In this document: piece after piece, positions 512 through 51,788 of the stretch
How positions within the stretch are numbered: position 1 is the first letter of the stretch
Layout of the letters: each line of letters starts with the position of its first letter
Assembly: GCA_034440615.1 (NCBI GenBank)
Contig: JAOTOM010002905.1
Coordinates: 59,481-123,480 of the forward strand
DNA: 64,000 bases
Direction: 5' to 3'
Source: Ashinkailepas kermadecensis
Lineage: Eukaryota > Arthropoda > Thecostraca > Neolepadidae
Translations under genes and position numbers: made by a program
Notes under the pieces: model-generated
Databases searched by the model: none
What the model was told of the DNA's origin: nothing
The model's input: the letters and a program-made list of their open reading frames with translations, nothing else

Positions 512-652
512 GTGGTGGCGGACGGCGCCGATGAGCCGGCCGAGGTACCGCTAGAGCAGCGCTGGCCCGTGCTGCAGTCAGTCAGCGGCCAGTTCGGGCC
601 CGATCACACTGACCTTGTCGAGGTCCACTTCTCCAAACCGACCCCGATCAAG
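512..652 (+). CDS. hiw: hiw exon 1 in window: PHR2 domain, inner part
   Basis: Acceptor CCTGCCCGCAG precedes 512; donor AAG|GTACC follows 652; 47 codons, phase 0 at both ends. It encodes [16 protein letters not shown] near its end, the beta-strand and linker that lead into the last part of a PHR domain. The phase fits the next exon. This exon is less conserved than the next one, so its 5' edge is slightly less certain. Confidence 0.75.
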
Positions 653-3600
653 GTACCACCCCACTGGTGTCCGTTCACGTGCCACTCGGCGCAGCCGGCT
701 GTAGACCGACACACTGGTCTGTTGACCCTGTCTGACCTGTCGCCGGGCCTGAGGCGAGCAGATGGCAGTCTGGCTGGCCTGCCACGCACATCGAACTGTT
801 CTTATCAGGCGATGCCTGATCAGAGTCATACTGAGGCCTGCACAGGGTCGCTAAATCGTATTGACTTTGTTCTCGCAAGAGTGAGACATCGCGATATCTA
901 TTTTTCGCTTCACAAAGCAGCATTTCGTTACTATCTTCCGTGGCCACGGCAGTACCGTTTGATGCGCTGCCTACTGCCCCAAGAGGTCGGTTGGACCTCG
1001 CTGTACGTGGGTAACCCTGTACTCGGCTGCCACAGGAGGGCGGTCGGTACGCTCTGCGGCTGCGGAACAGCGGCGGCCGCACCAGCAACGGAGACAGCGG
1101 CCAGAGCCGGGTGCGCGGCCCGGACGGCACCACCTTCAACTTCGCCACGTGTCCGCTGAGTCTGAACGGCACGAACCAGACGCGCGGCCAGCTGCCGCAG
1201 TTGCTGTACTACAGCCTGACGCCGGGCCGGCCGGCCAGCGCCGCCGGCCAGCCCGACCAGCGCTCCCGTCGCGCCGCGCTCGGTCTGCTGCGGGCGCTGT
1301 GCCGGGCCGCCGCCGAGCTGGCGGCCGGCGCGCGCGGCGTCGGCACGGCCGCCGCCGTGCGGGCCGTGTCCGACAGCCTGCTCAACACCAGACTGCTGCC
1401 GACCGCTCTGTCGCACGTGGCTTCCATGGTGCCGGCCGACCCACGGGTAAGCTGTTCACACCTGGATACTGTGTACAGCGCGTGAGAGGTGGCGAGCGTC
1501 ATCTTCTGGATGACATCAGCCTGATAGCGCGGAGGTGACAGGTGAACGTGATGTCTAACCCATGCGTTGGTGACGACTGACCTGTGCTGGTGGCACACAG
1601 CCTGTGCCGATGACAACTAACTTGTACCGGTCGGCCTGGTGACATGTGACCTGGTGTGCTCGGCAGACGGCTGTGCAGGTGATGACCCTGATCCAGGAGC
1701 TGCTGCCGCACGTGGCGGCGCTCAACAACCTGTGGCTGGCGCTGCAGCAGCCGGCGCCTGACCCGGCAGACACGCCGCCCACTGTGTCGCTGCACTGCTG
1801 CTGGGTGGAGAGTCGACACCCGTACCCGCCGGCCGCCATCCGCCGGAAACGGTCAGTCCTTCGACAGCCGATGCGTGATGGCTGCATCGGACCCGCTACC
1901 TCGCGGCTGCTGCGTCCGAAAATATTGCGCCGTTGCCGTGCGAACTGCATATGGCCCAGCTGCGGTGTCGGTACGAGTGTGAAAGATGTGCTACATAATG
2001 CTCCGTAGTGTACCTAGGTCACCAACTTGTGCGTTTTGTGTGTTGCGGTGTAGTCTAGATACCCGTTGGTCCACATGAGACGTCAGCTCAGCCGTACTGT
2101 AAGGTCCCGCCGAATTGCCATGAGCGAGCCTGTCTTGTAACAGTATTGTAATGTTCGTGTGCTTTGGCTGATCGGCTCGCTGCGGACCGTGACCCATCGG
2201 TGAGGTCGACAAATTAGTGCTTATGTCCCTCGGTGGTCCAGCTGGCTGCGGACCGTGACACATCGATGAGGTCGACAGGGTGGTGTTTATGTCCCTCGAT
2301 GGTCTAGCTGGTCGTGAAACGTGTGTTATGTCTACAGAGCGGTGTTCCCGGCGTCGGTACTCTGGCTGAGTGTCGAGTTTGAGACTCACTGCTGTGTCTG
2401 CAGGGTGGTGTTCCCGGTGTCGGTACTCTGGATGAGTGAGTTTGACGTTCGCTGCTGTGTCTGCAGGGTGGTGTTCCCGGCGTCGGTACTCTGGATGAGT
2501 GTCGAGTTTGAGACTCGCTGCTGTGTCTGCAGGGTAGTGTTCCCGGCGTCGGTGCTCTGGATGAGTGTGAGTTTGAGACTCGCTGCTGTGTCTGCAGGGT
2601 GGTGTTCCCGGTGTCGGTACCCTGGATGAGTGTCGAGTTTGAGACTCGCTGCTGTGTCTGCAGGGTGGTGTTCCCGGCGTCGGTACTCTGGATGAGCGTC
2701 GAGTTTGAGACTCGCTGCTGTGTCTGCAGGGTGGTGTTCCCGGCGTCGGTGCTCTGGATGAGTGTCGAGTTTGAGACTCGCTGCTGTGTCCGCAGGGTGG
2801 TGTTCCCGGTGTCGGTACTCTGGATGAGTGTCGAGTTTGAGACTCGCTGCTGTGTCCGCAGGGTGGTGTTCCCGACGTCGGTGCTCTGGATGAGTGTCGA
2901 GTTTGACGTTCGCTGCTGTACGGCGCAGCCGGAGGACCGGCTGCTGGTGGGCCTTCCTGCTGAGGACGGCCACACCGTCACCGTGCTGACTCTGAGTGGT
3001 CAGCACGGCTGGCCGCGCTCGGCCGTCATCCTGCCAGGTGAGGCCGACACGGGACACCTGCGGTCAGCACGGCTGGTCATCACCCTGTCAGGTGAGGCCG
3101 ACACCGGACACCTGCGGTCAGCACGGCTGGTCATCACCCTGTCAGGTGAGGCCGACACTGGACACCTGCGGTCAGCACGGCTGGTCATCACCCTGTCAGG
3201 TGAGGCCGACACTGGACACCTGCGGTCAGCACGGCTGGTCATCACCCTGTCAGGTGAGGCCGACACTGGACACCTGCGGTCAGCACGGCTGGTCATCATC
3301 CTGCCAGGTGAGGCTGACGCCGAGCACCTGTGGTCAGCACGGCTGGTCATCATCCTGTCAGGTGAGGCCGACACTGGACACCTGCGGTCAGCACGGCTGG
3401 TCATCACCCTGCCAGGTGAGGCCGACACTGGACACCTGCGGTCAGCACGGCTGGTCATTATCCTGCCAGGTGAGGCCGACACGGGACACCTGCGGTCAGC
3501 ACGGCTGGTCATCACCCTGTCAGGTGAGGCCGACAATGGACACCTGCGGTCAGCACGGCTGGTCATCATCCTGCCAGGTTAGGCTGACACCGAGCACCTG

Positions 3601-6600
3601 TTTGGGAACTGTCACTTCAGGTCCGTCAGCGAGTGCCAGTGATGGTCCTGGCGAGATATAGCGGGGGAGACTGGTCATAGTTGTTTGTTTCTTCATTGCT
3701 TGGTATGATACGAAACAATCGTCCGGCTTGGAGTTTTGCAACCACTGATTTTCTTCTGGGATGCATGTGGTAGGTTGATGACACTGCATGACCTTATGGC
3801 CATTGCAGTTGAATGATGCAAATGAAGTGTCTATTTCGAGGAATGGTGAGACTTAACCTGAAACAAAAATATAGTTTCGTATTTGTGCATTCGCGCTGCC
3901 CTGGTATTTGTGTGTAACAGAACGGAACTTTTTATCTTGTATGTCATCGAGATTATCACGGCGAATGGAACTGAAGTCAAACTATTGGCGATATTCGATA
4001 GCAAAGATGAAGTGAAATGTGTCCTCTTCTGGTCTGATTGCGTGTGCTTGAGCATATTTTGTAGTTCTGTATGACGGCTCACCTCCCAAGGTCTCTCCAT
4101 GGCAGCCAAAAAAGTACTTGCAACTTGAAGCAAGGTTCAGTGTAAGCGTTGCGAGAAAGTTAATGCTATCCTAGGCCAAATAATGCCTTTAATTTCGTAT
4201 TAACGTCACCGCTGCCGCCCCTGAACAGGTGATGATCGGTGATACCGTCCTGGCGGCTGTCGAGACCATTGCACCCGGATGACGCGGTGACCTGTTGCCC
4301 AGGCAACGAGGTGATCTTCTCACTGGAGACGGCGTCCAACTACGTGCGTGAGGACGGCTCCGACACGTTCGGCTACCGTTGTCTGGTGACGGGCCACCAG
4401 CCGACGGCCGTGCACGGCGTCCAGCACCTGGAGCACGAGCTGGCCCACCTGGGCGGCATGTGCGCCTCTGCACTGATGCGGCGCAACATGCCGTTGCCGG
4501 CCGTCACAGGTCAGTGGTGCAGTCGGCTATGGTCACGACTGGAATCTGACCTGAGGTCAGGCGTGTGGTGATGACTGTGACTGGCCTCCAGAGGACGACC
4601 TTCTGGAGCCTGGTCTGAGACTACCTGTGACTTGAGGTCAGGTGTGAAGTGACCATGCGACTGATCCCCAGAGAACCGCCGTCTGGAGCCGGGTGTGAAG
4701 TGACTATGTGACTGGTCCCCAGAGGAGGACCGTCGTCTGGAGCCGGATGTGAGGCCCGGTGTGAAGTGACTATGTGACTGGTCCCCCCCAGAGGAGGACC
4801 GTCGTCTGGAGCCGGGTGTGAGGCCAGGTGTGAAGTGACTATGCGACTGGTCCCCAGAGGAGGACCGCCGTCTGGAGCCGGGTGTGAGGCCCGGTGTGAG
4901 GTGACTATGTGACTGGTCCCCTCAGAGGAGGACCGCCGTCTGGAGCCGGACCTGCTGGACGAGGTCGGCCGCGACACCGTGTCGGTTCACTCGACACTGC
5001 TGCGCGGGGGTCTGGCGCTCTCTCAGCAGCCCACCGTGAACCAGGCGCTGGACGGGGTCATCCCTTTCAGGTGAGGCGACCCGTCACTCCATCCCACCAT
5101 CCCTGGCTGAGACGCCAGAAGTAGTGTGAAGTATCATGGGCCACCTTTACTGGCGTATGTGTCCGCTAAGCCTGTCACCGAGCGACGTATCCTGCCGGTT
5201 GGCACAGTCCCCCCTGTCCAAGTCATATTGTATTGTTGAGTGCAAGAATTAAGTATAAATTGCTAGGTATGAGTATCAGGTATTGTTGTCATTGCCTGTA
5301 ATTTCATTTCTATGCGAGATAATCTCACGTTAACGAAATAATGCAATTAGTATCTCATTCTGGCATCTATAATTTAATTTAAGATGCTTATGTTTGTCTT
5401 TGTTAGCCTACGAACTGTGGTGATAGGACGCTGAGCTGCCCTTGCACTATTACAGTTCGTTAATACACGATCCACTGAATGATGATCACACGCGCCTTGG
5501 CTGAGCTGTGACGGCGGTGTGTGTTCCGTTGCAGCTGCCACAGTAACGAGCGTGTGTTCCTGCGTGACCTGGTGACGGCGCGGCCAGGCACCAGCGGCGC
5601 CCGACTGGCCGCCTGGCTACAGCCGGAGGCGCGACTCGAGCCGGCGCACACCGAAACAGAGTGTGCCAGCGACCAGCTGCGCTGTGGCTGGCCGGTCACG
5701 GTCACCGTCACCACCCGAGACCAGCACGGTCAGCAGGCCTACACTGCCGGCCTGAAGGTGAGGTCACGGTCACTGTCACCACCCGAGACCAGCACGGTCA
5801 GCAGGCCTACACTGCCGGCCTGAAGGTGAGGTCACCATCACCGTCACCACCCGAGACCAGCACGGTCAGCAGGCCTACACTGCCGGCCTGAAGGTGAGGT
5901 CACGGTCACCGTCACCACCCGAGACCAGCACGGTCAGCAGGCCTACACTGCCGGCCTGAAGGTGAGGTCACCGTCACGGTCACCACCCGAGACCAGCACG
6001 GTCAGCAGGCCTGCACTGCCGGCCTGAAGGTGAGGTCACCGTCACCGTCACGGTCACCACCCGAGACCAGCACGGTCAGCAGGCCTGCACGGACTCCACG
6101 TTTGGAGTCGACATTTCAAGTGATACAATTGTATCCATGTATTGAATTCGTTATTTCTCAACATCTCTACCTCACTCACGGGTAATATTGCACCCTGCTG
6201 TTGTTCCTTATGTTGTTACTTCCGGAAGTTATGGAGAAGCTGAGCTGTACACCGTTTCCCTGTCGGCTTCTTCTATTGTCCTTGTCTGTCTCATTTTTTC
6301 TCTTGGGGTGGATTTTCTTCTTGGAGATATATCTAGGGCGGGGCGGCAGGGCATACCTCGGGTGAAAGTGTGGTAGGATCCGGCCGTGACGGTGGAATAT
6401 ACCACATGCGTAGGTGTAAGGATGAATCTATGGCGTGACGGGATGGTATTCCACAGGCCGAGGTGTTGAGACGATCTGGACCGTGATTGTAGGGTATGCC
6501 ACAACTGGAGGTACGGGAGGATCTAGGGCGTGATGGCAGGGCATACCACAGGTGGAGGTGTGGGGGATGCGTGACAACAGGGCGTGCCACAGGTGGAAGT

Positions 6601-48600: not shown

Positions 48601-51600
48601 CAGCACGTACCAAGCATTGGCCACCGGCACTGGTGCGGCGAAATCGGCATGAGATAGTGGTCCTGTGTGTCCCCAGCCGATCCCGGAAACAACCACCGTC
48701 GTACCTGTCACCGTTCAGGCTGTACTTGTGACCGAAAAATGTCTTCAAAAATCATTCGAGTGATAATGCATACGAGAATATAATAATGATTGGTTATGGG
48801 GTGGAGCAATGTGGTCAGGGAAACACATTTATCGGCCAATCGTAGGCTGACTAGTTACATCCCTGATTGAGCCGACACCTAACTGAACGAATTCGAAAAC
48901 ACTGCTCCTGCCTGACCATCGCTTACTCGGCGTGTCCCAGAATTGTCACCTCCCCTCTCTGACTCGTTGACTCGGTGTTCCCCAGAGCTGTCACCCTCGT
49001 CCCCCTGCCTGACAACCACTTGCTCGGCGTGTCCCAGGATTGCCACCTCCTCTCCTGACTGTCGCTGACTCGGTGTGACCGAGGCTTGTCACCCCTCCCT
49101 GACTGTCGCTGACTCGGTGTGTCCCAGAGGTGTTAACTCCCATCCCTGATTGTCGCTGACTATGTGTGTTCCAGGGTTGTCACCTCCCCCGTCTGACTGT
49201 CGCTGGCCCGGCGTAACCCAGGGTTGCCACCTCCCCCGTCGGACTATCGCTGACTCGGTATGTGCCTCAGGCGTCGATCGAGCACGCTACCCTGGCCGAT
49301 CTACTGTCGCCAATCGCCGCGCTGCGCGAGGACGTGCGCAAGAAGGCGCTGATCCGGTGCCAGTACGAGGGCCTCAAGTTGGCGGAGACGGACGGTCTGA
49401 CCGGCACGGACCCTAGTGACAAACTGGCCGCTCTCGCCATGGACCGCTACGCTTACTATGTGTGCAGCAAATGCGAAAAGGTCAGCCGGCAAAGCGTCAT
49501 CTGCCGGTGCCGGTCAGGTTTGGTGATGTGACGAGTCATCAAGCGCACCATCGGTGTCGGCTACTGGCTTCTCTGGCCACTTTTGCCCTAATCACCTATT
49601 GTCACATCTCATCTATCTAGTGTATATTTACGATTAATGCCACCTGAGCAAATAGTAGAGCGTGGCAAAGGTGGATAAGGATTTGTCGTGTTAAATGCCA
49701 ACCATCAGACGTAAGCTGTGGCAAATAGTAGGTATGCGGCCATATGCGGCCACGTGTTCTGTGCGGGTGTAACGCTGCCGGCGGCCGGCAGGCGTACTAC
49801 GGCGGGGAGGTGCGCTGCGACGCGGCTCTGGAAGGCGCCGACGACTACGACCCGGCCGAGCTGGTGTGCGGAGGCTGCAGTGACGTCACACGCGCCCAGC
49901 TCTGCCCGAAACACGGCACCGACTTCCTCGAATACAAGTGCCGCTACTGCTGCTCCGTGGCCGTCTTCTTCTGCTTCGGCAAGACGCACTTCTGCAACGC
50001 CTGTCACGACGACTTCCAACGGCTCACCGGCATCCCCGTGGCGCAGCTGCCGGCGTGCCCGGCCGGTCAGTACTGTCCCCAGCGTCTGCCCTACTGTCCG
50101 ACATGTCAGTACTGTCCCCAGCGTCTGCCCTACTGTCGGTACTGTCCCCGGCGTCTGCCCTACTGTCAGTACTGTCCCCGGCATCTGCCCTACTGTCAGT
50201 ACTGTCCCCGGCGTCTGCCCTACTGTCAGTACTGTCCCCGGCGTCTGCCCTACTGGCCGACATGTCAGTACTGTCCCCAGCGTCTGCCCTACTGTCCGGC
50301 CGGTCAGTACTGTCCCCGGCATCTGCCCTACTGTCAGTACTGTCCCCGGCGTCTGCCCTACTGTCAGTACTGTGCCCGGCATCTGCCCTACTGTCAGTAC
50401 TGTCCCCGGCATCTGCCCTACTGTCAGTACTGTCCCCGGCGTCTGCCCTACTGTCAGTACTGTCCCCGGCATCTGCCCTACTGTCAGTACTGTCCCCGGC
50501 ATCTGCCCTACTGTCAGTACTGTCCCCGGCATCTGCCCTACTGTCAGTACTGTCCCCGGCATCTGCCCTACTGTCAGTACTGTCCCCGGCGTCTGCCCTA
50601 CTGTCAGTACTGTCCCCGGCATCTGCCCTACTGTCAGTACTGTCCCCGGCGTCTGCCCTACTGTCAGTACTGTCCCCGGCATCTGCCCTACTGTCAGTAC
50701 TGTCCCCGGCATCTGCCCTACTGTCAGTACTGTCCCCGGCGTCTGCCCCACTGTCAGTACTGTCCCCGGCGTCTGCCCTACTGTCAGTACTGTCCCCGGC
50801 GTCTGCCCTACTGTCAGTACTGTCCCCGGCGTCTGCCCTACTCTCCGGCCGGTCAGTACTGTCCCCGGCGTCTGTCCTACTGTCCGGCTTGTCAGTACTG
50901 TCCCCGGCGTCTGCCCTACTGTTCGACCGGTCAGTACTGTCCCCAGCGTCTGTCCTACTGCCCGACTGGTCAGTACTGTCCCCAGCGTCTGCCCTACTGT
51001 CCGGCCGGCAAGTACTGTCCCCAGCGTATGCCCTACTGTCCGGCCGGTCAGTACTGTCCCCAGCGTCTGCCCTACTGTCCGACCTGTCAGTACTGTCCCG
51101 TCTGATGCTGTTCGGTCGGTCAATACTGTCCCCGGCATCTACCCTAGTGTCCGGTCGGTCAATACTGTCCCCAGCGTCTGCCCTACTGTCCGGCCGGTCA
51201 GTACTGTCCCCGGCGTCTGCCCTACTGTCCGACCTGTCGGTGGATTTCCCCAGTGGCTGCCCTCAGTGGCGCCACCTGTCCTACGGGTTCGGCCGGCCAG
51301 TACTGTTCCCAACATCTGTTCTCTGGGCCCCCACCTACCCCACTGCCGGTTGTTTAGCAATGTAATATATGATTTCCGTTTGCTGCTTGTCGGTCATTCC
51401 TCATCAGAAGCAATACTAGCCATTGCAGGATCAATAAATCAGCTTTCTTTGGTGTCCGTATGTAGGGTGTAGACAGTGGCACTCGAAGGCAGTGGCAGTG
51501 AAGCTGGCGCAGCATCATGGCTCGCGTATCAGTTTGGGAGTCAGATTTTTAGCGTCACATCAGGGCTCTTCGCCCATCCCCCTGTGATCAGCTGGATGGA

Positions 51601-51788
51601 CAGCATCAGTAGACGAGTGGATTGAGACATGTTTGATGCCTGTCTGAATCGTGCTGTTTGTGCGCCGTCCAGGTCCGCGCGCCACCCAGCTCGAGGGCTC
51701 CGAATGTCCCCTGCACGTGCAGCACCCGGCCACCGGCGAGGAGTTCGCGCTGGGCTGCGGCGTCTGTCGCAACGCGCACACCTTCTGA
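512..51788 (+). CDS. hiw: highwire/MYCBP2 (PHR-family E3 ubiquitin ligase), 3' portion, 39 spliced exons
   Basis: The 39 exons listed below join to 2858 codons plus TGA with all phases consistent. Order and content match the C-terminal ~2830 residues of human MYCBP2 (about 4680 residues): PHR2 end, filamin repeat, SH3-like repeats, DOC domain, B-box-like zinc region, RING and tandem-cysteine domain. Known family role: a giant neuronal E3 that pairs with the F-box protein FSN-1/FBXO45, limits synapse growth and axon degeneration signalling by degrading DLK/Wallenda kinase and NMNAT, and transfers ubiquitin by a RING-Cys-relay that esterifies threonine or serine. The 5' half lies outside the window, so no start codon or promoter is visible. 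Introns are unusually rich in minisatellites that repeat exon edges. Minor uncertainty: one or more low-conservation exons could be missed between 28455 and 30454 or in the Ser-rich linker. Confidence 0.95.
1036..1446 (+). CDS. hiw: hiw exon 2: end of PHR2 domain and following helical region
   Basis: Acceptor GGCTGCCACAG, donor CGG|GTAAGC, 137 codons, phase 0. Encodes [16 protein letters not shown] and [19 protein letters not shown], the PHR-domain C-terminal signature, then an Ala-rich helical stretch ending MVPADPR. PHR domains are beta-sandwich protein-interaction modules unique to this family. Very GC-rich, with long Ala/Arg/Gly runs absent from vertebrate orthologues. Confidence 0.95.
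1667..1851 (+). CDS. hiw: hiw exon 3: post-PHR2 linker
   Basis: Acceptor TGTGCTCGGCAG, donor CG|GTCAGT, ends in phase 2. Encodes [12 protein letters not shown] followed by [10 protein letters not shown], matching the conserved QQLLPSVAILN and IESEHPYKPA segments of vertebrate MYCBP2. The split Arg codon is completed by the first base of exon 4. Confidence 0.93.
2330..2861 (+). repeat. hiw: Acceptor-type minisatellite before exon 4 (66 bp, 8 copies)
   Basis: Eight imperfect 63-66-bp units, each with TGTCTGCAG|GGTGGTG and the following ~50 bases of exon 4. The ninth copy is the real exon start. The 66-bp period keeps the exon frame, and there is no stop from 2599 onward. Confidence 0.95.
2862..3037 (+). 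CDS. hiw: hiw exon 4: conserved FP..VLWM..EFD..C.TAQ segment
   Basis: I chose the last copy of the repeated acceptor (TGTCCGCAG|GGTGGTG) because only this copy runs on into [15 protein letters not shown] and [14 protein letters not shown], both conserved in the family. Ends phase 1 at CCAG|GTGAGG. Eight upstream partial copies of the acceptor plus the first ~50 exon bases exist from about 2330; using any 66-bp-spaced copy would add in-frame sequence. The array after the exon repeats its 3' edge. Confidence 0.92.
3038..3585 (+). repeat. hiw: Donor-type minisatellite after exon 4 (54 bp, about 10 copies)
   Basis: Units repeat the last ~30 bases of exon 4 (GTCAGCACGGCTGG...CTG(C/T)CAG) and the donor GTGAGGCCGACAC. 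The period is a multiple of three and the exon frame stays open to 3582. Confidence 0.95.
3590..4302 (+). other. Unique intron segment
   Basis: AT-richer, non-repetitive intron sequence between the exon 4 donor array and exon 5. I see no gene or element in it. Confidence 0.5.
4303..4509 (+). CDS. hiw: hiw exon 5: [14 protein letters not shown] segment
   Basis: Acceptor GTTGCCCAG, donor ACAG|GTCAGT, phase 1 at both ends. Encodes [14 protein letters not shown] and [18 protein letters not shown], near-identical to the vertebrate NEALFSLETASDYV and LEKELANLGGVCAAALM segments. Function of this conserved block is not well defined. Confidence 0.95.
4640..4925 (+). repeat. hiw: Acceptor-type minisatellite before exon 6 (about 66 bp, 4-5 copies)
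   Basis: Units contain GACTGGTCCCCAG followed by AGGAGGACCG(C/T)CGTCTGGAG, which is the start of exon 6; the final copy is the exon itself. Confidence 0.9.
4926..5070 (+). CDS. hiw: hiw exon 6: linker before filamin repeat
   Basis: Acceptor GGTCCCCTCAG, donor TTCAG|GTGAGG, starts phase 1, ends phase 2. Encodes [13 protein letters not shown] and [18 protein letters not shown], matching ILGKGLALSHSPTILEAL in vertebrates. Four to five upstream copies of its acceptor and first ~25 bases lie in the preceding intron. Confidence 0.92.
5535..5757 (+). CDS. hiw: hiw exon 7: start of filamin-type Ig repeat
   Basis: Acceptor CGTTGCAG, donor CTGAAG|GTGAGG, starts phase 2, ends phase 0. Encodes [20 protein letters not shown], then [18 protein letters not shown], the first strands of the filamin repeat (vertebrate DIRCGWPTTITVQTKDQYG). 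The 3' end is duplicated about five times in the intron. Confidence 0.95.
5758..6090 (+). repeat. hiw: Donor-type minisatellite after exon 7 (68 bp, about 5 copies)
   Basis: Each unit starts with the donor GTGAGGTCACGGTCACCGTC and ends with the last ~50 bases of exon 7, including CCTACACTGCCGGCCTGAAG. Confidence 0.95.
6340..6634 (+). repeat. hiw: Acceptor-type repeats before exon 8 (about 36-40 bp)
   Basis: Units contain GGGCATGCCACAG|GTGGAGGTGTGGG with growing divergence upstream. This intron therefore has different arrays at its two ends. Confidence 0.8.
6635..6817 (+). CDS. hiw: hiw exon 8: filamin-repeat loop region
   Basis: Acceptor GCATGCCACAG, donor CCG|GTGAGT, phase 0 at both ends. 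Starts VEVWAEPI directly after the Lys of exon 7, matching the vertebrate MKVEVKAVPV junction. Ends [18 protein letters not shown], matching the strand before [11 protein letters not shown]. The middle is poorly conserved. Short repeats upstream carry its acceptor plus GTGGAGGTGTGGG. Confidence 0.88.
7222..8038 (+). repeat. hiw: Acceptor-type minisatellite before exon 9 (27 bp, about 30 copies)
   Basis: Unit GTGTACAGGTGTGCTGTCCG + TCCCCAG. Every copy carries a pyrimidine-rich tract, CCCCAG and GTGTAC as at the real exon 9 acceptor. 27 bp keeps frame; the exon frame is open back to 7169. Confidence 0.97.
8039..8215 (+). CDS. hiw: hiw exon 9: end of filamin-type repeat
   Basis: Acceptor CCGTCCCCAG, donor GCC|GTGAGT, phase 0. 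Encodes [12 protein letters not shown] and [20 protein letters not shown], the diagnostic C-terminal half of the filamin Ig repeat. About 30 copies of a 27-bp unit containing the acceptor and GTGTAC lie immediately upstream, in frame with this exon and without stops. Confidence 0.96.
8216..8972 (+). other. Unique intron, exon 9 to exon 10
   Basis: Mostly non-repetitive, AT-richer sequence. No gene, RNA or clear mobile element seen. Confidence 0.5.
8973..9179 (+). CDS. hiw: hiw exon 10: SH3-like repeat, first half
   Basis: Acceptor GGGTCACCAG, donor GAG|GTCAGT, phase 0, 69 codons. Encodes [11 protein letters not shown] and [20 protein letters not shown], almost identical to the vertebrate [20 protein letters not shown] stretch. 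This begins the paired SH3-like region that follows the filamin domain. Confidence 0.97.
9846..9941 (-). repeat. tRNA-derived SINE or tRNA pseudogene (Ser/Leu-like)
   Basis: On the minus strand the segment reads GCGGGGATGGCCGAGTGG then TTAAGG, a good class II tRNA A box, and 40-50 bases later GGGTTCAAC, a degraded B box, with CCCGC near the 3' end. The 5' and 3' ends can pair only partly, so a working tRNA is unlikely. It sits in the exon 10-11 intron. Confidence 0.55.
10085..10424 (+). repeat. hiw: Acceptor-type minisatellite before exon 11 (30-32 bp, about 10 copies)
   Basis: Units of ACACACAG|GTACACACCG plus TGACCCCGCGCGTC. The last copy becomes the real acceptor followed by GTACACAACGACGAC. 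Confidence 0.95.
10425..10627 (+). CDS. hiw: hiw exon 11: SH3-like repeat, second half
   Basis: Acceptor CACACACAG, donor AACAG|GTCAGT, phase 0 to phase 2. Encodes [16 protein letters not shown] and [20 protein letters not shown], matching IHNDDGVWLRLND and AWCLSFNQHLGKSLLVPVDE. A 30-32-bp array upstream repeats the acceptor and GTACACA. Confidence 0.96.
10628..11156 (+). other. Unique intron, exon 11 to exon 12
   Basis: No array or gene seen. There is a short local duplication around ATGGTCGACTGTRTGGTTGG (10720 and 10801). Confidence 0.5.
11157..11340 (+). CDS. hiw: hiw exon 12: second SH3-like repeat, first half
   Basis: Starts phase 2, ends phase 0 at GGAGAG|GTAGGC. Encodes [18 protein letters not shown] and ACLLTTVGE, matching YKVVKTGPSGHNIRSCPN and KVKAVGE. 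The acceptor is one of two adjacent CAG triplets (start 11157 or 11160, same frame), and its upstream tract is purine-mixed and weak, so the first Ser/Gly residues are uncertain. Confidence 0.88.
11341..11660 (+). repeat. hiw: Donor-type minisatellite after exon 12 (69-77 bp, about 4-5 copies)
   Basis: Units repeat the exon 12 end (GCCTGTCTGTTAACC...GTCGG(A/G)GAG) with the donor GTGGGCCCGAC. Confidence 0.9.
11809..11941 (+). CDS. hiw: hiw exon 13: second SH3-like repeat, second half
   Basis: Acceptor TATGTGCTTCAG, donor CCAG|GTGTGT, phase 0 to phase 1. Encodes [14 protein letters not shown] and [11 protein letters not shown], matching TWVQLDQNSMVEFC and EGEAWSLARD. The donor and the last ~17 exon bases begin an 83-bp array of about 17 copies. 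Confidence 0.92.
11942..13333 (+). repeat. hiw: Donor-type minisatellite after exon 13 (83 bp, about 17 copies)
   Basis: Very homogeneous units starting at the donor GTGTGTACACC and ending with CGCCGCAGG(T/C)GTCAGCCAG, the exon 13 end. 83 bp is not a multiple of three, yet all three plus-strand frames stay open over most of the array, producing long artefactual ORFs. Confidence 0.97.
13676..13855 (+). CDS. hiw: hiw exon 14: Ser-rich linker
   Basis: Acceptor CCACCCCAG, donor CCAGG|GTAGGT, phase 1 at both ends. Encodes a Ser/Pro/Gly-rich linker with [10 protein letters not shown] and [10 protein letters not shown]. Only loosely similar to the vertebrate linker; supported mainly by splice sites, phase and coding-like composition. 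Confidence 0.8.
13856..14060 (+). repeat. hiw: Degenerate repeat after exon 14
   Basis: Loose repetition of GGCGCCRAACRGCGYGAGT-like words about 20-30 bases apart directly behind the exon 14 donor. Too diverged to give a clear unit. Confidence 0.5.
14176..14311 (+). CDS. hiw: hiw exon 15: Ser/Arg-rich linker
   Basis: Acceptor TGTGTTTCAG, donor GCCAG|GTATGC, starts phase 1, ends phase 2. Encodes [20 protein letters not shown] and [17 protein letters not shown]. Low conservation; the call rests on good splice sites, matching phases with both neighbours and absence of stops. Confidence 0.75.
14400..15370 (+). repeat. hiw: Acceptor-type minisatellite before exon 16 (54 bp, about 18 copies)
   Basis: Units end with GCCGGT(G/A)(C/T)CAGTAG and start with GGAGCGTCTC, matching the real acceptor CAGTAG|GGAGAGTCT. 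Interrupted at 14502-14558 by a short dispersed repeat. Confidence 0.96.
14502..14558 (-). repeat. Short dispersed repeat with GCGCCCTAAA core
   Basis: Plus strand reads TTAGTTAGTTATTTGGGC then TTTAGGGCGCTTCGACC. It is related in inverted orientation to segments at 32128, 43335 and 44308, and its GTTAGTTAGTTATTTGGG start recurs at 17040. Inserted in the 54-bp array. Confidence 0.6.
15371..15582 (+). CDS. hiw: hiw exon 16: Pro/Arg-rich linker
   Basis: Acceptor GGTACCAGTAG, donor CCTG|GTGAGT, starts phase 2, ends phase 1. Encodes [19 protein letters not shown] then a Pro/Arg/Ser stretch with TPPGTPKR and [12 protein letters not shown]. Arrays touch both edges: 54-bp units repeat its acceptor upstream and 41-bp units repeat its last ~20 bases and donor downstream. 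Confidence 0.85.
15583..16600 (+). repeat. hiw: Donor-type minisatellite after exon 16 (41 bp, about 24 copies)
   Basis: Unit starts with the donor GTGAGTGCCGTGTCCATACA and ends TGTCGTCACACCTG, the last exon 16 bases. Distal copies carry deletions and a higher-order pattern near 16265-16580. Confidence 0.97.
17082..18094. mobile_element. piggyBac-like nonautonomous element with TTAA flanks
   Basis: Left end TTAACCCGGCACGTCCGG and right end, read in reverse, TTAACACTCGCACGTCCGG. Both are followed by a palindromic G-run motif GGGGGGATATCTGCCCCCC or close. TTAA on both sides is the piggyBac target signature. The 1.0-kb interior has repeated GACCTGAGGTCA words and no transposase, so it would be a MITE. 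Confidence 0.7.
18305..18420 (+). CDS. hiw: hiw exon 17: Ser-rich linker
   Basis: Acceptor CTGACCTCAG, donor GCAGAG|GTAGGC, starts phase 1, ends phase 0. Encodes [20 protein letters not shown] and [13 protein letters not shown], a Ser/Arg linker typical of the poorly conserved middle of the protein. Confidence 0.78.
18421..19397 (+). other. Unique intron, exon 17 to exon 18
   Basis: No array, RNA or mobile element recognised. Confidence 0.5.
19398..19661 (+). CDS. hiw: hiw exon 18: linker with [12 protein letters not shown] motif
   Basis: Acceptor GTGCGCGCAG, donor CCAAAG|GTGAGC, phase 0, 88 codons. [20 protein letters not shown] resembles the vertebrate VHFSIG..ASPKISRK motif just before the conserved [12 protein letters not shown] block. 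Its last ~15 bases plus the donor are repeated in a 60-bp array. Confidence 0.88.
19662..19965 (+). repeat. hiw: Donor-type minisatellite after exon 18 (60 bp, about 5 copies)
   Basis: Units start GTGAGGGAACAGCCACGCCA and end CCAGCCGCCAAAG, copying the exon 18 end and donor. Confidence 0.92.
20500..20762 (+). CDS. hiw: hiw exon 19: conserved [10 protein letters not shown] block
   Basis: Acceptor GCCGCCCTCCAG, donor CAACG|GTGAGG, phase 0 to phase 2. Encodes [18 protein letters not shown] and [19 protein letters not shown], almost identical to vertebrate [36 protein letters not shown], then RHSLAVS and an Asp run. This is a hallmark block of the family. Confidence 0.97.
20763..22100 (+). repeat. 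hiw: Donor-side minisatellite after exon 19 (mostly 23-48 bp, several dozen copies)
   Basis: Dense units of GGTGAGGCGGTCCCGAGGCG and GTACTGACGGG with higher-order patterns. Each unit keeps GGTGAGG like the exon 19 donor, but similarity to the exon body is limited. Confidence 0.9.
22533..22989 (+). CDS. hiw: hiw exon 20: expanded 7-residue repeat and [11 protein letters not shown] block
   Basis: Acceptor CCCCTTCCTCAG, donor GCAG|GTCAGT, phase 2 to phase 0. The C-terminal part [20 protein letters not shown] matches LTLQHLVAFWEDISLATIKAA of vertebrates. Before it, 22573-22887 codes for 15 tandem heptads of the form DR(R/K)D-x-S-(G/E), highly charged, with a 28-residue higher-order unit. No equivalent is known to me in vertebrate orthologues. 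An internal acceptor at 22929 would skip the repeat but breaks the phase with exon 19. Confidence 0.85.
22573..22887 (+). repeat. hiw: Coding minisatellite within exon 20 (21 bp, 15 units)
   Basis: Encodes 15 heptads such as [28 protein letters not shown] and DRRDPSG. Codons differ between units (CGG/AGG/AAG, GAC/GAT), so it is older or less homogenised than the intron arrays. Confidence 0.85.
22990..23340 (+). repeat. hiw: Donor-type minisatellite after exon 20 (69 bp and shorter, about 5-6 copies)
   Basis: Units contain GGACTTATTGCCCAGCAG|GT, the end of exon 20 (GGGCCTTATTGCCCAGCAG) plus GTCAGT. Distal copies are diverged. Confidence 0.92.
23550..24310 (+). repeat. Direct repeats of ~75 bp flanking a unique 0.6-kb segment
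   Basis: GGGTGTGTTGTCCGGCTGTT at 23558 and GGGTGTGTTATCCGGCTGTT near 24247 begin two diverged ~75-bp copies sharing also ATGTTCTCTGTTGG. The sequence between shows no recognised gene or element ends. Confidence 0.6.
24533..24703 (+). CDS. hiw: hiw exon 21: basic linker
   Basis: Acceptor GGTGCCGGCAG, donor TCAG|GTGTGA, phase 0. Starts AVLPSPST, matching vertebrate MIFPSPGS right after the AIWDGL/AFWEDI helix, then a Lys/Arg-rich stretch [19 protein letters not shown]. The donor is weak (GTGTGA). Confidence 0.85.
24704..25140 (+). repeat. hiw: Donor-type minisatellite after exon 21 (about 60-65 bp, 7 copies)
   Basis: Units run from TCTCAG|GTGCGGCGGCGG through TACATCAGTGTCCGGG to GGCGGACTTCTCAG. 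Exon similarity is limited to the last few bases, TCTCAG|GTG. Confidence 0.85.
25440..25564 (+). repeat. hiw: Acceptor-type repeats before exon 22 (about 37-45 bp, 3 copies)
   Basis: CACAGGGACATGGTG, TACAGGGACTCGGTG and the real GCAG|GGACACGGCATGG follow each other with GTGACCTG-type spacers. Confidence 0.8.
25565..25803 (+). CDS. hiw: hiw exon 22: zinc finger (C-x2-C...H...HPGCG...C-x2-C)
   Basis: Acceptor GTGTTGCAG, donor GACAGAG|GTGGGT, phase 0 to phase 2. Encodes [34 protein letters not shown] and [10 protein letters not shown], matching vertebrate ICELCGE...HMRQAHPGCGRYAGGQGY...CDRCREKYL. All putative zinc ligands are retained. The last ~65 bases plus donor are repeated eight times downstream as a 70-bp unit. 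Confidence 0.96.
25804..26355 (+). repeat. hiw: Donor-type minisatellite after exon 22 (70 bp, 8 copies)
   Basis: Each unit starts GTGGGTCTGGCCAGCAGTAC and ends CGTAGGACAGAG, an almost exact copy of the last ~65 bases of exon 22 with its donor. Confidence 0.97.
26360..28081 (+). other. Unique intron, exon 22 to exon 23, with one SINE
   Basis: About 1.7 kb of AT-richer sequence without arrays. Contains the tRNA-derived segment at 27481-27640; otherwise nothing recognised. Confidence 0.5.
27481..27640 (+). repeat. tRNA-derived SINE-like element
   Basis: GTGGTCTAGGGGTAAGATGC is an A box and GGTTCGAGTCT a near-perfect B box, about 35 bases apart. The acceptor ends do not pair well and a body continues to about 27640 (CGACGTGTCGTAAAACC), as in SINEs. 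Confidence 0.65.
28082..28454 (+). CDS. hiw: hiw exon 23: [15 protein letters not shown] segment and linker
   Basis: Acceptor GCCGTTCACAG, donor GCCTGT|GTGAGT, phase 2 to phase 0. [33 protein letters not shown] and [10 protein letters not shown] correspond to the vertebrate basic segment, EAHQVIKANALFLLSLS and LYLQTLARH. It then continues in a basic Gln/Arg-rich tail. The exact donor is uncertain because the first intron repeat unit copies it. Confidence 0.9.
28455..28935 (+). repeat. hiw: Donor-type minisatellite after exon 23 (about 23-24 bp, about 20 copies)
   Basis: Unit GTGAGTGGTCCGTCTCCGCC + TGT copies the last bases of exon 23 (CCGTCTCCGCCTGT) and its donor. Confidence 0.95.
29190..30454 (+). 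repeat. hiw: Acceptor-side composite array before exon 24
   Basis: Mixed units of GTGAGTGATGTCAC(T/G)GGCAG and, more distally, CCTGTCGTCAG|ATCCCCGACAC, the latter carrying the exon 24 acceptor and first 11 bases in at least five copies. Confidence 0.93.
30455..30745 (+). CDS. hiw: hiw exon 24: RSVSVG...MRRRR linker
   Basis: Acceptor CCTGTCGTCAG, donor CTGCAG|GTCAGG, phase 0, 97 codons. Encodes [20 protein letters not shown] and [17 protein letters not shown], resembling vertebrate QRSYSVVASE...PRRR and SPELSRLISAH. Acceptor-type copies with ATCCCCGACAC occur several times upstream. Confidence 0.88.
30746..30900 (+). repeat. hiw: Donor-type repeat after exon 24 (about 50 bp, 3 copies)
   Basis: Units end CAGCCCGACCTGCAG and continue GTCAGG, copying the exon 24 end and donor. 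Divergence increases downstream. Confidence 0.88.
31175..31252 (+). repeat. tRNA-derived SINE-like segment
   Basis: ATGTGGTCTAGTGGATCC resembles an A box and GGATTCGATTTC a B box about 45 bases on. Poor end pairing argues for a SINE remnant rather than a tRNA gene. Confidence 0.5.
31793..31909 (+). CDS. hiw: hiw exon 25: [11 protein letters not shown] segment
   Basis: Acceptor GACCCGCCAG, donor CTGCAG|GTGACG, phase 0, 39 codons. [20 protein letters not shown] and [11 protein letters not shown] match WPVLAFVIQHHDLEGLEIAM and RKSACRVFAME. Well conserved helical region preceding the DOC domain. Confidence 0.96.
32128..32186 (+). repeat. Dispersed GCGCCCTAAA repeat with (CCA)n tail
   Basis: AATGACCAATGCAGTCGACG followed by CGCCCTAAAATAC and a short CAC/CCA run. 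Related to 43335, 44308 and, inverted, 14502. Confidence 0.6.
32360..32582 (+). repeat. hiw: Acceptor-type repeats before exon 26
   Basis: Three units of about 80-120 bp contain ACATGGTC(C/A)TCAG|GCGCT followed by (G/C)ACCTGGCTG. The last is the real acceptor. Confidence 0.88.
32583..32708 (+). CDS. hiw: hiw exon 26: LTWLLRSV...LHDLLWFF segment
   Basis: Short exon of 42 codons between acceptor GGTCCTCAG and donor GACGAG|GTTAGA, phase 0. Encodes [20 protein letters not shown], matching FNWLLCNVIQTTSLHDILWHF. Repeats upstream contain several copies of its acceptor followed by GCGCTGACCTGGCTG. Confidence 0.94.
33040..33330 (+). repeat. hiw: Internal intron repeat, exon 26 to exon 27
   Basis: Loose 36-45-bp units of GACTCCRTCTGGYTGTGTG. 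They do not touch an exon edge, unlike most arrays in this gene. Confidence 0.6.
33623..33774 (+). CDS. hiw: hiw exon 27: [19 protein letters not shown] segment
   Basis: Acceptor CGTGCTGTGCAG, donor GTCAG|GTGAGG, phase 0 to phase 2. [20 protein letters not shown] matches [21 protein letters not shown]. The last 63 bases are duplicated twice more downstream as part of a 105-bp unit, in which the donor GT has become AT. Confidence 0.97.
33775..34030 (+). repeat. hiw: Donor-type repeat after exon 27 (105 bp, 2 extra copies): duplicated exon end
   Basis: Each unit holds a C-rich tract ending CTACTGTCAG, then 63 bases of exon 27 (21 codons, [20 protein letters not shown]) and GTCAG. In the copies the donor reads CAG|ATGAGG instead of GTGAGG. 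Confidence 0.95.
34730..35037 (+). repeat. hiw: Internal repeats upstream of exon 28
   Basis: Units of CGCTACTGTGTGATCTGTG with GACCTGACC spacers, 31-62 bp. The acceptor of exon 28 itself is not repeated. Confidence 0.75.
35050..35206 (+). CDS. hiw: hiw exon 28: [20 protein letters not shown] segment
   Basis: Acceptor CCCGTCGCCAG, donor CCGCTG|GTGAGG, phase 2 to phase 0. [20 protein letters not shown] matches CWSLKFKQSDHQFLHQSNVF. It precedes the largest array of the window, 31-bp units that repeat CCCGCTG|GTGAGG. Confidence 0.96.
35207..37290 (+). repeat. hiw: Donor-type minisatellite after exon 28 (31 bp, about 57 copies)
   Basis: Unit starts with the donor GTGAGGATCAGGGTGTGGTG and ends GGGACCCGCTG, the last exon 28 bases (GGCGACCCGCTG). 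Regular from 35207 to about 36965, then decaying to 37290. The largest array in the window. Confidence 0.97.
37560..37946 (+). repeat. hiw: Acceptor-type minisatellite before exon 29 (about 41-50 bp, 9-10 copies)
   Basis: Units contain CTGGCAG|GCAGCGGTACAGGTGACCTC; the real exon start is GGCAG|GCGACGGTGCAGGTGACC. Confidence 0.93.
37947..38459 (+). CDS. hiw: hiw exon 29: DOC/APC10-type domain
   Basis: 171 codons, phase 0, acceptor GTGTCTGGCAG, donor GCTCAG|GTGAGC. Contains [64 protein letters not shown] and [15 protein letters not shown], the signature of the DOC domain shared with APC10 and implicated in substrate or partner recognition. An alternative acceptor 12 bases downstream (after GTGCAG) would remove four codons. 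Confidence 0.98.
38460..39290 (+). repeat. hiw: Donor-type minisatellite after exon 29 (31 bp, about 26 copies)
   Basis: Unit starts GTGAGCTGGGTCACGTCTGG and ends TGGCGGCTCAG, the end of exon 29 (GTGGCGGCTCAG) plus donor. Confidence 0.97.
39300..40530 (+). other. Unique intron core, exon 29 to exon 30
   Basis: AT-rich, with a small TGTTGC(A/T)(G/T)TCACTGTTGAT repeat near 40350-40430. Nothing else recognised. Confidence 0.5.
40540..40989 (+). repeat. hiw: Acceptor-type repeats before exon 30 (30-60 bp)
   Basis: Units contain TG(T/G)(C/T)GTCAGGTGGTATAT or GTGTCGCCAGGCGGTGTACA, resembling the real ATCGCCAG|GTGTTC acceptor. Confidence 0.85.
40990..41160 (+). CDS. hiw: hiw exon 30: VFGKL...[12 protein letters not shown] segment
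   Basis: Acceptor GTATCGCCAG, donor ACACAG|GTGTGG, phase 0, 57 codons. Starts [11 protein letters not shown] (vertebrate VFGKLISGDAE) and ends [20 protein letters not shown] (DLKEHMVGIIFSRSKLTNLQ). Acidic, poorly conserved middle. Confidence 0.96.
41560..41812 (+). repeat. hiw: Degenerate acceptor-like repeats before exon 31
   Basis: 27-30-bp words such as CCCTGTCTCCCAGCTGATGA recur up to the real acceptor. Similarity with the exon itself is not clear, so I do not count this intron among the exon-edge arrays. Confidence 0.6.
41813..42028 (+). CDS. hiw: hiw exon 31: [13 protein letters not shown] segment
   Basis: Acceptor GCTGTGCCGCAG, donor CGACAG|GTACAC, phase 0, 72 codons. [20 protein letters not shown] and [15 protein letters not shown] match CFELLSMVLALSGSNVGRQ and LFSLLHTASPRVQRQ. 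The last ~17 bases plus donor are repeated about 19 times downstream. Confidence 0.97.
42029..42695 (+). repeat. hiw: Donor-type minisatellite after exon 31 (35 bp, about 19 copies)
   Basis: Unit starts GTACACCGGCACAG and ends CTGGGGCAGCGACAG, the end of exon 31 (CCAGCGACAG) plus donor. Confidence 0.96.
43069..43214 (+). CDS. hiw: hiw exon 32: [12 protein letters not shown] segment
   Basis: Acceptor TGTGCTGGCAG, donor CAACAG|GTGGGC, phase 0 to phase 2. [20 protein letters not shown] matches [20 protein letters not shown], followed by an acidic tail. Confidence 0.96.
43335..43395 (+). repeat. Dispersed GCGCCCTAAA repeat
   Basis: ATGGCCAGCGTGATCGGTGC followed by GCCCTAAAGCC and ATTACCAACCA; same family as 32128. 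Confidence 0.55.
43550..43702 (+). repeat. hiw: Acceptor-type repeats before exon 33 (about 37 bp, 4 copies)
   Basis: Units contain CTGTCTGTTCCAG|TCTGTGTGGTG; the real acceptor is CTGTCTGTCCGACAG|TTTGGGTGTG. Confidence 0.88.
43703..43916 (+). CDS. hiw: hiw exon 33: [13 protein letters not shown]...RWWLKG segment
   Basis: Acceptor GTCTGTCCGACAG, donor GCGAG|GTGAGT, phase 2 to phase 0. [20 protein letters not shown] and [20 protein letters not shown] match KLGILDMFLGCIAKALTVQL and HWWMKGSTPTQISEIIIKL. Upstream repeats carry its CCAG acceptor. Confidence 0.95.
43960..44085 (+). repeat. hiw: Short tandem repeat after exon 33
   Basis: About 20-26-bp units of CCGGCACCACGACCCAACA, beginning ~45 bases behind the donor. 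Confidence 0.75.
44308..44372 (+). repeat. Dispersed GCGCCC..CCTAA repeat
   Basis: GGCCGACGCAGTTGATGCGC then CCGGCGTCCCTAAGCTCC and AAAAACCAACCAGCC; same family as 32128 with a short insertion in the core. Confidence 0.55.
44390..44660 (+). repeat. hiw: Pyrimidine-rich short repeats before exon 34
   Basis: About 16-22-bp words CTGACCTCCCC(G/C)(T/A)G and TATCTGACC that form an unusually long C/T-rich tract before the exon 34 acceptor. Confidence 0.7.
44682..44906 (+). CDS. hiw: hiw exon 34: WLALASLCVL-type segment
   Basis: Acceptor GGTCGTCGTCAG, donor TCCCGG|GTCAGT, phase 0, 75 codons. [20 protein letters not shown] and [19 protein letters not shown] then TSGRW match vertebrate GHLSEAWSRVTKNA and LWLALASLCVLDQDHVDRLSSGRW. 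Confidence 0.96.
44907..45759 (+). other. Unique intron, exon 34 to exon 35
   Basis: Non-repetitive AT-richer sequence; no gene, RNA or element seen. Confidence 0.5.
45760..45888 (+). CDS. hiw: hiw exon 35: B-box-like zinc region
   Basis: Acceptor TTGCTGTCCGCAG, donor GACAG|GTAAGG, phase 0, 43 codons. [20 protein letters not shown] and [11 protein letters not shown] with HH near the end reproduce the C/H spacing of the B-box-like zinc region upstream of the RING (vertebrate CDNHDDGETAAIILCNVCGNLCTDCDRFLHL). Confidence 0.97.
45889..46530 (+). repeat. hiw: Donor-type minisatellite after exon 35 (24 bp core)
   Basis: Unit GTGAGGGGACCTCACCACAG + ACAG copies the exon 35 end (CGACCTCACCACAGACAG) plus donor. 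About four clean copies, then increasingly diverged ones with ATAGACAGGTG(A/G)(A/G)GG to about 46530. Confidence 0.92.
46761..47294 (+). CDS. hiw: hiw exon 36: Cys-rich region and RING finger
   Basis: 178 codons, phase 0, acceptor CCGGCGGCAG, donor TGCAAG|GTGAGC. Starts [20 protein letters not shown] (vertebrate [19 protein letters not shown]), continues through a Cys/His-rich zinc segment, and ends with the RING at exon residues 127-177 (47139-47291): C-x2-C-x14-C-x-H-x2-H-x2-C-x20-C-x2-C, with [11 protein letters not shown] between the last pairs. The RING recruits the charged E2, which hands ubiquitin to the relay domain encoded by the next exons. All eight zinc ligands are present. Confidence 0.99.
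47555..49270 (+). repeat. hiw: Acceptor-type repeats before exon 37, split by a TIR element
   Basis: Units of about 45-60 bp contain CTGACTGTCGCTGACTCGGT and TGTCCCAGG(G/T)TTGT. They occur once or twice at 47555-47630 and again at 48911-49270, up to the real acceptor GCTGACTCGGTATGTGCCTC + AG. Confidence 0.85.
47640..48910. mobile_element. Nonautonomous TIR element (about 1.27 kb)
   Basis: Left end (from CAGGATTCTCAAATTTGTCC) and reverse complement of the right end align over about 70 bases, strongest in TCAGGGATGTAACTA and GATTGGCCGA (47682-47725 against 48830-48866). It interrupts the acceptor-type array, which marks its boundaries independently. No transposase recognised inside; open frames at 48172-48657 and on the minus strand at 47928-48260 have no known match. 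No clean target duplication; CCTG on both sides is only suggestive. Confidence 0.7.
49271..49480 (+). CDS. hiw: hiw exon 37: RING to tandem-cysteine linker helix
   Basis: Acceptor TGTGCCTCAG, donor GAAAAG|GTCAGC, phase 0, 70 codons. [20 protein letters not shown] and [14 protein letters not shown] match vertebrate LKDLLDPIKELYEDVRRKAL and MNRYAYYVCYKCRK, the linker helix and first zinc ligands of the tandem-cysteine domain. Confidence 0.98.
49481..49791 (+). other. Short unique intron, exon 37 to exon 38
   Basis: 311 bases without repeats; one of the few array-free introns. Confidence 0.6.
49792..50065 (+). CDS. hiw: hiw exon 38: tandem-cysteine RING-Cys-relay catalytic domain
   Basis: Acceptor GCGGCCGGCAG, donor GCCG|GTCAGT, phase 0 to phase 1. 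AYYGGEVRC holds the upstream (mediator-loop) cysteine at 49816-49818, equivalent to human C4520; SVAVFFC holds the downstream esterification cysteine at 49972-49974, equivalent to human C4572. The following [15 protein letters not shown] keeps the three aromatic residues and the histidine (50005-50007, human H4583) reported for threonine esterification. The array behind the exon repeats 30-bp units starting at its donor. Confidence 0.99.
50066..51240 (+). repeat. hiw: Donor-type minisatellite after exon 38 (30 bp, about 38 copies)
   Basis: Unit GTCAGTACTGTCCCCGGCGT + CTGCCCTACT, with CCGGCC(G)GTCAGTACTG variants copying the exon 38 end GCCCGGCCG|GTCAGT. The exon 38 frame remains open to 51105, reading Cys/Tyr-rich decapeptides ([10 protein letters not shown]). 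Confidence 0.96.
51673..51788 (+). CDS. hiw: hiw exon 39: C-terminal exon with stop
   Basis: Acceptor GCCGTCCAG, phase 1 start joined to CCG of exon 38 to give [14 protein letters not shown]. Encodes [20 protein letters not shown] and CRNAHTF, then TGA at 51786-51788. The final residues [11 protein letters not shown] are identical to the vertebrate C-terminus, so the stop is authentic. Confidence 0.99.

Follow-up and report, generated by a model that had tools for sequence, protein, structure and literature searches.

The window, a 64,000-nucleotide stretch of Ashinkailepas kermadecensis DNA, carries on its + strand the 3' half of a MYCBP2/highwire/RPM-1 (PAM) orthologue, and at 27 exon borders of this gene a tandem array extends from within the exon across the splice site and into the intron. 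Fifteen of these arrays lie on the donor side and 12 on the acceptor side, in 23 of the 38 introns, whereas random placement of the units in collapsed introns would give 7.3 spanning arrays (P=3e-13). The arrays are the same kind of structure as the 'mirages' of lancelets, a known kind, and their number in this gene is unusual. On balance, they are probably minisatellites that arose where segments of 23-105 bp were duplicated locally in tandem, no more than some 50-75 bp away from an exon edge. The variation among their copies also gives a hint that copies losing the splice signal stop being copied.

The gene and its exon model

The gene occupies 512..51788 and comprises 39 exons and 38 introns, with 2,879 codons plus stop. 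The exon model was built by reading the sequence and then checked with a script. All 38 introns are GT-AG, and the exons join into a single open frame of 2,879 codons whose stop ends at 51,788. The acceptor of exon 12, the donor of exon 14 and the acceptor of exon 15 were picked to preserve the frame, making these boundaries less certain than the others. The 38 introns and the interval from 1,852 to 51,672 given by the original prediction hold good, the first position being the first base of intron 3 and the second the last base of intron 38. The C-terminal 261 residues align without gaps to human MYCBP2 (chain 5o6c; E=5e-131), and a Pfam scan of five exons found PHR in one and a RING finger in another. 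Exon GC is 0.70, and 0.86 at third positions. Rfam, at its gathering threshold, gave no match in the window, nor was any tRNA found in it.

Use of the exon-nearest splice sites at all introns keeps the frame open. At introns 36, 37 and 38 the human chain is aligned without a gap, which suggests that the exon-nearest sites are the ones used.

Arrays in the introns

Arrays were detected with Tandem Repeats Finder (TRF), by local alignment of junctions to introns and by wraparound alignment. The resulting 42 intron arrays are TRF rows merged by hand, rows with a score below 50 and rows inside exons being excluded; hand entry also supplied some far ends and, for the acceptor arrays of introns 23 and 29, the edges. 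In each of the 27 border-crossing arrays the unit contains the exon edge and the splice site and the array, as aligned, ends within the exon, so that the exon copy is the terminal unit, as had been predicted for donor and acceptor sides alike. Wraparound alignment supports 25 of the 27. For the other two, on the acceptor side of introns 23 and 29, the evidence is the TRF row and local alignment: in intron 23 a wraparound alignment with a 112-bp consensus ended 60 bp before the exon, and in intron 29 one with a 30-bp consensus ended 35 bp before it. By wraparound alignment, identity of copies to their consensus is 0.74-0.99. The 27 units measure 23-105 bp; 13 of them are multiples of three, which does not differ significantly from one third (p=0.11). 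Altogether, the arrays account for 20,224 of 42,637 intron bases. Six introns, of 220-977 bp, are without any listed array, and in the 23 introns with border-crossing arrays the unique sequence has a median length of 404 bp.

Five exons carry arrays at both ends. Exon 4 lies between an acceptor array of intron 3 (2329..2919; 66-bp unit, 9 copies, 58 bp of exon) and a donor array of intron 4 (3017..3600; 54-bp unit, 10.8 copies, 21 bp of exon). At exon 16 the acceptor array, in intron 15, covers 14356..15379 (54-bp unit, 19 copies, 12 bp of exon) and the donor array, in intron 16, 15563..16599 (41-bp unit, 24 copies, 20 bp of exon; far end from TRF). Exon 22 has a short acceptor array in intron 21 (25491..25572; 33-bp unit, 8 bp of exon) and a donor array in intron 22 (25740..26356; 70-bp unit, 64 bp of exon; far end from TRF). 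The acceptor array of intron 23 at exon 24 (29207..30465) has composite units of 21 to 211 bp and includes 11 bp of exon, and the donor array of the same exon, in intron 24, lies at 30731..30961 (50/51-bp unit, 15 bp of exon). Exon 29 is bordered by an acceptor array in intron 28 (37559..37968; 42-bp unit, 22 bp of exon) and a donor array in intron 29 (38442..39299; 31-bp unit, 27.7 copies, 18 bp of exon).

Ten further donor arrays are found. The largest, at exon 28 and intron 28 (35192..37279), has a 31-bp unit in about 57 intronic copies with 15 bp of exon, its far end being degenerate and taken from TRF. The 83-bp unit at exon 13 and intron 13 (11922..13335) occurs in 17 copies with 20 bp of exon, the 23-bp unit at exon 23 and intron 23 (28441..28937) in 21.6 copies with 14 bp, and the 35-bp unit at exon 31 and intron 31 (42020..42697) in 19.4 copies with 9 bp. 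The remainder are located at exon 7 and intron 7 (5694..6090; 68-bp unit, 64 bp of exon), exon 12 and intron 12 (11302..11688; 69-bp unit, 39 bp), exon 18 and intron 18 (19644..19963; 30/60-bp unit, 18 bp), exon 20 and intron 20 (22971..23333; 33/69-bp unit, 19 bp), exon 27 and intron 27 (33704..34039; 105-bp unit, 71 bp) and exon 35 and intron 35 (45872..45973; 24-bp unit, 17 bp).

Among the seven other acceptor arrays, that of intron 8 and exon 9 (7222..8045) contains 30.5 copies of a 27-bp unit and 7 bp of exon, while that of intron 29 and exon 30 (40554..40990; 30/70-bp units) includes about 32 bp of exon by local alignment. The others lie at intron 5 and exon 6 (4633..4949; 66-bp unit, 24 bp of exon), intron 7 and exon 8 (6491..6647; 42-bp unit, 13 bp), intron 10 and exon 11 (10063..10434; 32-bp unit, 10 bp), intron 25 and exon 26 (32393..32604; 82/83-bp unit, 22 bp) and intron 32 and exon 33 (43511..43713; 37-bp unit, 11 bp). 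All of these features are on the + strand.

Seven weaker arrays, also on the + strand, touch or almost touch a border without a clear alignment to the exon, and were scored as non-spanning in the chance test. Four are on the donor side: in intron 14 (13860..14047; 21-bp unit, beginning at the donor), intron 19 (20762..22100; a 30-bp family in 44.6 copies), intron 21 (24718..25169; 65-bp unit) and intron 38 (50066..51238; 30/39-bp unit, far end from TRF), the last of these introns holding a 19/20 copy of its own junction word. Three are on the acceptor side: at intron 16 and exon 17 (18102..18299; about 22-24 bp), in intron 30 (41559..41805; 24-bp unit) and at intron 36 and exon 37 (48912..49271; 47-bp unit). 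With them, 28 of the 38 introns are affected. The original prediction of at least 26 introns thus falls between the two counts, being too high for strictly border-crossing arrays and exceeded once the weak ones are added.

Clustering at exon borders

The excess of spanning arrays is little changed when the lengths of the six array-free introns are used, in which case 8.1 are expected and the maximum in 5,000 draws is 18. A test on junction words, which is independent of the array calls, agrees with the anchoring seen in the arrays. Words of 10+10 bp across the junction recur in their own intron, at 16 or more of 20 positions, for 16 of 38 donors and 12 of 38 acceptors. In resampled own introns, taking the best of 20, the match level was reached at three donors and one acceptor (shuffles here and in the local-alignment tests were first-order resamplings). 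In other introns such words matched in 2 of 1,406 donor and 1 of 1,406 acceptor comparisons, and these 3 matches in 2,812 bear out the claim that the units are specific to their introns. In this gene, the picture of recurrent, separate and local events clustered at exon borders is therefore upheld, with 27 spanning arrays against 7.3.

A simple model that confines units to the W bp around an exon edge and discards those internal to exons was compared with the 38 near-edge arrays, of which 27 span the border. A zone of W=50 predicts 28.4 spanning arrays and one of W=75 predicts 21.9 (P=0.04), whereas W=100 and W=150 predict too few (16.8, P=2.5e-4, and 11.3, respectively), W having been fitted after the fact and not predicted. 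As the excess persists at 100 bp, the zone must be narrow; one of 50-75 bp around exon edges suffices for the anchoring.

Under the favoured reading, a local tandem duplication of 23-105 bp near an exon edge would start the array. Duplications lying wholly within the exon would be purged by selection, since the protein is changed, while those reaching into the intron would be tolerated, the exon-most donor or exon-nearest acceptor staying in use. Unequal exchange could then extend the arrays, and the statistics described below suggest that growth might proceed mainly through copies with an intact donor signal, and in part outwards, beginning at the exon end. Most likely the arrays make introns longer and have no job of their own.

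The base composition around the exons was also compared. At array-free sides, GC of the intron flank falls from 0.635 in the first 50 bp to 0.479 at 100-200 bp, and this drop, beside the exon GC of 0.70, marks the exon plus flank as a distinct zone. However, array-bearing flanks are not richer in GC than array-free ones, and those at acceptors are poorer (0.593 versus 0.629 over 50 bp, p=0.03), which speaks against GC-rich flanks as what selects the sites: GC by itself does not determine where arrays occur. Donors with arrays are not clearly stronger than the others either, with 7.3 and 7.1 matches of nine, respectively.

Repeats are also present outside the introns, as in-frame 84-bp repeats within exon 20 and as another array 60 bp downstream of the stop codon. 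Both would be expected if exon sequence were generally prone to duplication and selection cleaned most coding exons.

Variation at the splice signals

Variation among copies was analysed in 25 of the 27 spanning arrays; the other two, on the acceptor side of introns 23 and 29, were omitted since their composite units did not align to a single consensus. For tests of shared and private variants, arrays with fewer than five intronic copies were dropped, leaving 13 donor arrays; the analysis of exon parts and similarity, in which units were split differently, had 12 donor arrays in its shared/private part.

In every one of the 15 donor arrays the eight bases from exon -2 to intron +6, which pair with U1, vary less than the other positions of the unit (0.030 versus 0.073), and none of 20,000 rotations is as low, although this window was chosen after the offset profile had been viewed and the signal is exploratory. 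The 8-mer carries 44 substitutions in 1,687 positions, where 88.2 are expected from trinucleotide context, and by the same test the effect is absent from the eight bases on each side. The four weak donor arrays, kept separate, point in the same direction (0.033 versus 0.065, p=0.02; the junction copy was retained, and the register in intron 38 is one base off).

When distinct variants are counted in the 13 donor arrays, those private to a copy are at their normal level in the 8-mer (26 versus 27.4 expected), whereas shared variants are depleted (6 versus 20.7, p=1e-4). The depletion persists when CpG/TpG transitions are removed (5 versus 16.0, p=0.0006) and, in this filtered set, without intron 20 (3 versus 12.6), without intron 28 (3 versus 13.1) and in arrays of at least 15 copies (3 versus 10.7, p=0.006). 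It lies mostly at +3 to +6, with one shared variant against 10.4 expected. The zone model does not predict it. The normal private rate makes it unlikely that the signal mutates slowly or that selection acts on individual copies, unless sequence errors inflate that rate, and purifying selection on every intronic copy is disfavoured on the same ground. What is missing is the spread of copies with a damaged donor, which points either to amplification that depends on the signal or to the loss of haplotypes rich in such copies.

The first of these possibilities, that duplication or spread needs an intact U1-pairing donor and that copies losing it are no longer amplified, is less likely than not, although it is in line with the 15 concordant donor arrays, the contrast of depleted shared with normal private variants, the persistence of that contrast after filtering and the lean of the weak donor arrays. 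Acceptors add that positions -3 to -1 are without shared variants in 240 cells of six arrays, but rotation does not make this significant (p=0.13). The AG is less variable in eight of ten acceptor arrays (Wilcoxon p=0.02; rotation p=0.07 and 0.16, not significant), and longer acceptor windows have no reduced variation. Apart from the post hoc choice of the window, it counts against signal dependence that GT itself is not clearly depleted of shared variants at the event level (4 versus 5.2), and that variation at the junction GT (0.040 versus 0.057, p=0.21) and at the junction AG (0.033 versus 0.058, p=0.22) does not fall significantly below that of the same dinucleotide at other places in the unit (paired p=0.29). 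The shared-versus-private contingency is itself weak (Fisher p=0.011 for all variants, 0.02-0.05 after filtering), and GC skew has no common sign across the arrays.

Counted by events, shared variants at the signal are depleted about threefold, with private hits at the normal rate. Signal-dependent growth could act by way of nascent RNA, of the splicing machinery or of a motif-bound recombination step; we know of no enzyme that amplifies copies of DNA by their splice signal. It is possible, if speculative, that mirage growth reads the splice signal, with recognition of nascent RNA or splicing feeding back on DNA duplication. An intronic copy would then be amplified only as long as its donor, and perhaps its acceptor, stays intact, and introns would grow longer as they copy their own borders. 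In this respect the splice signals may be relevant to which copies get amplified, which is in favour of the original prediction. Comparison of shared with private variants at the splice signal offers a direct test of the influence of splicing on DNA duplication, an influence that bears on the growth and origin of introns.

The second possibility is that selection removes haplotypes rich in defective donor copies, either because unequal exchange brings the damage to the junction in use or because the splicing of long introns benefits from additional U1 sites. The depletion of shared variants fits this too, as does the retention of GT in 194 of 212 intronic donor copies and of AG in 86 of 92 acceptor copies; moreover, instability of mirage length is reported in lancelets (PMC3087553). 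However, private variants are undepleted, unless sequencing errors among them mask a depletion. In the exon part of the donor arrays, at -10 to -3, shared variants are not depleted either (29 versus 20.7 expected), and of the 70 shared types in the exon part 45 are nonsynonymous, where a fraction of 0.73 is expected, with no clear synonymous bias (p=0.11). Selection on haplotypes is rather unlikely, and the present data do not separate it from signal-dependent amplification.

A third proposal is that the used copy at the exon end is the sole template, so that newborn copies start with an intact signal. In 14 of 15 arrays, copies resemble the used one less the farther they lie from the exon (sign test p=0.001; individually significant in only three of the 15), and part of the growth therefore seems to start at the exon end. 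Nevertheless, it is improbable that the 45 shared nonsynonymous types went through the copy in use; they imply that intronic copies were amplified as well, which disfavours the exon-terminal copy as the only template and makes this proposal improbable.

Breakpoints and the origin of the arrays

The favoured reading, in which duplications arise in a narrow zone around exon edges, has to be set against random duplication at a time when introns were still very short, so that most units crossed a border. With unique intron sequence halved, 11.5 spanning arrays are expected (P=6e-8), and with it quartered 16.9 (P=5e-4); only at one tenth of today's length is chance enough, 24.7 of 42 then being expected (P=0.27). 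The array-free introns of 220-977 bp, the median unique sequence in array-bearing ones and the quarter-length test all disfavour such short ancestors, and we regard them as quite improbable.

The original prediction placed the start of duplication at AG|GT junctions, through slippage or break repair primed by AGGT. Indeed, 28 of 38 donors read AG|GT. The arrays, however, extend to varying depths into the exon, from 7 to 71 bp with a median of 18, and the fraction of the unit contributed by the exon does not depart significantly from a uniform distribution (KS p=0.17, n=27, with exon lengths entered by hand from alignment and TRF outputs); thus, the breakpoints are not at the junction. Nor is AGGT enriched where arrays occur: with weak arrays included, it is found at 14 of 19 array-bearing donors and 14 of 19 others, and AG|GT at 4 of 15 acceptors with arrays (three weak ones included) and 5 of 23 without, leaving 11 of the 15 lacking it. 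With breakpoints scattered in the exon and AGGT equally common at other borders, priming by AGGT is very unlikely, and this part of the prediction is not supported. Nor do the arrays lend support to an R-loop-linked mechanism of a single G-rich kind, as GC skew ranges from -0.30 to +0.49 across the 27 arrays with no common sign.

Although tandem arrays are readily misassembled, the differences between copies, the intron-specific units and a frame that stays open across 39 exons leave an assembly artefact scarcely credible.

Comparison with known systems

Ordinary GC-rich minisatellites have similar unit lengths, copy numbers and homogenisation. The MYCBP2 arrays differ from them in being tied to exon borders and in the depletion of shared donor variants. 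In base composition, with a GC of 0.70 in exons and 0.86 at third positions, the gene does not resemble lancelet DNA, the lancelet genome having a GC of about 0.41. The original paper on mirages is reportedly that of Canestro et al. in 2002.

In lancelets (Branchiostoma), mirages have been described in Adh3, globin, troponin C and PGBD5 genes, on the donor or the acceptor side, with units of 10-72, 60, 108 and 150-160 bp and with AG/GT kept in many, not all, copies, as far as the accessible text of the reports goes (PMC3087553; PMC3902484). Normal splicing and length variation are reported there, and the origin is termed unclear (PMC3087553). The likeness lies in a unit that joins exon bases to the adjoining splice site, 5' and 3' borders both being affected here. 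The difference is one of number: MYCBP2 has 27-34 arrays, whereas the accessible parts of the lancelet reports give one each in two globin genes and two in PGBD5. Unlike the lancelet mirages described in those parts, the arrays here reach about 57 intronic copies and occur at both ends of five exons. A literature search, with most subscription journals outside its scope, found no report of mirages outside lancelets. With about 30 mirages in one gene, where the reports found give one or two arrays per gene, mirage birth and growth become countable.

The arrays were also likened to the gain of introns by tandem genomic duplication of exon sequence containing AGGT (PMC3443670). Both involve tandem duplication that includes splice-site sequence, but the parallel does not extend to splice sites supplied by AGGT, given its equal frequency at donors (14/19 versus 14/19) and at acceptors (4/15 versus 5/23). 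The MYCBP2 arrays argue against a breakpoint at AGGT and confine array birth to a region measuring tens of bases at exon edges. In intron gain by AGGT duplication, a duplicated exon segment becomes a new intron (PMC3443670), whereas in MYCBP2 it is existing introns that grow.

Other repeats in and around the gene

Eight intron arrays in the MYCBP2/highwire/RPM-1 orthologue contain no exon sequence (window positions 2175-2311, 8233-8281, 33058-33172, 34739-35035, 40343-40428, 43943-44081, 44388-44644 and 45191-45235). Half of them lie 14-37 bp from an exon-intron border, and these four may be decayed border arrays, that is, tandem repeats whose unit includes the exon edge and the adjoining splice site. 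By eye, an apparent degenerate repeat of ~60 bp is also seen in the intron preceding the first exon of the window (1-511), ending near the acceptor; as this intron is incomplete in the window, the repeat was left out of the counts.

Two intronic stretches, at 9840-9950 and 27487-27560, resemble tRNA by eye and are possibly pieces of SINEs; ARAGORN, in its bacterial setting, found no tRNA in the window.

Tandem repeats also occur within coding sequence, in exon 20 (22588-22879), where an 84-bp unit, corresponding to 28 codons, grades into units of 42 and 21 bp, every unit length being a multiple of three.

An array with a 21-bp core and a 65/86-bp higher-order structure (51849-53128) starts 60 bp 3' of the stop codon, and is possibly located in the 3' UTR. 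Downstream of the gene lies a long array of 20/92/112-bp units (54702-57417), which is strongly skewed towards A over T (AT skew 0.51-0.63).
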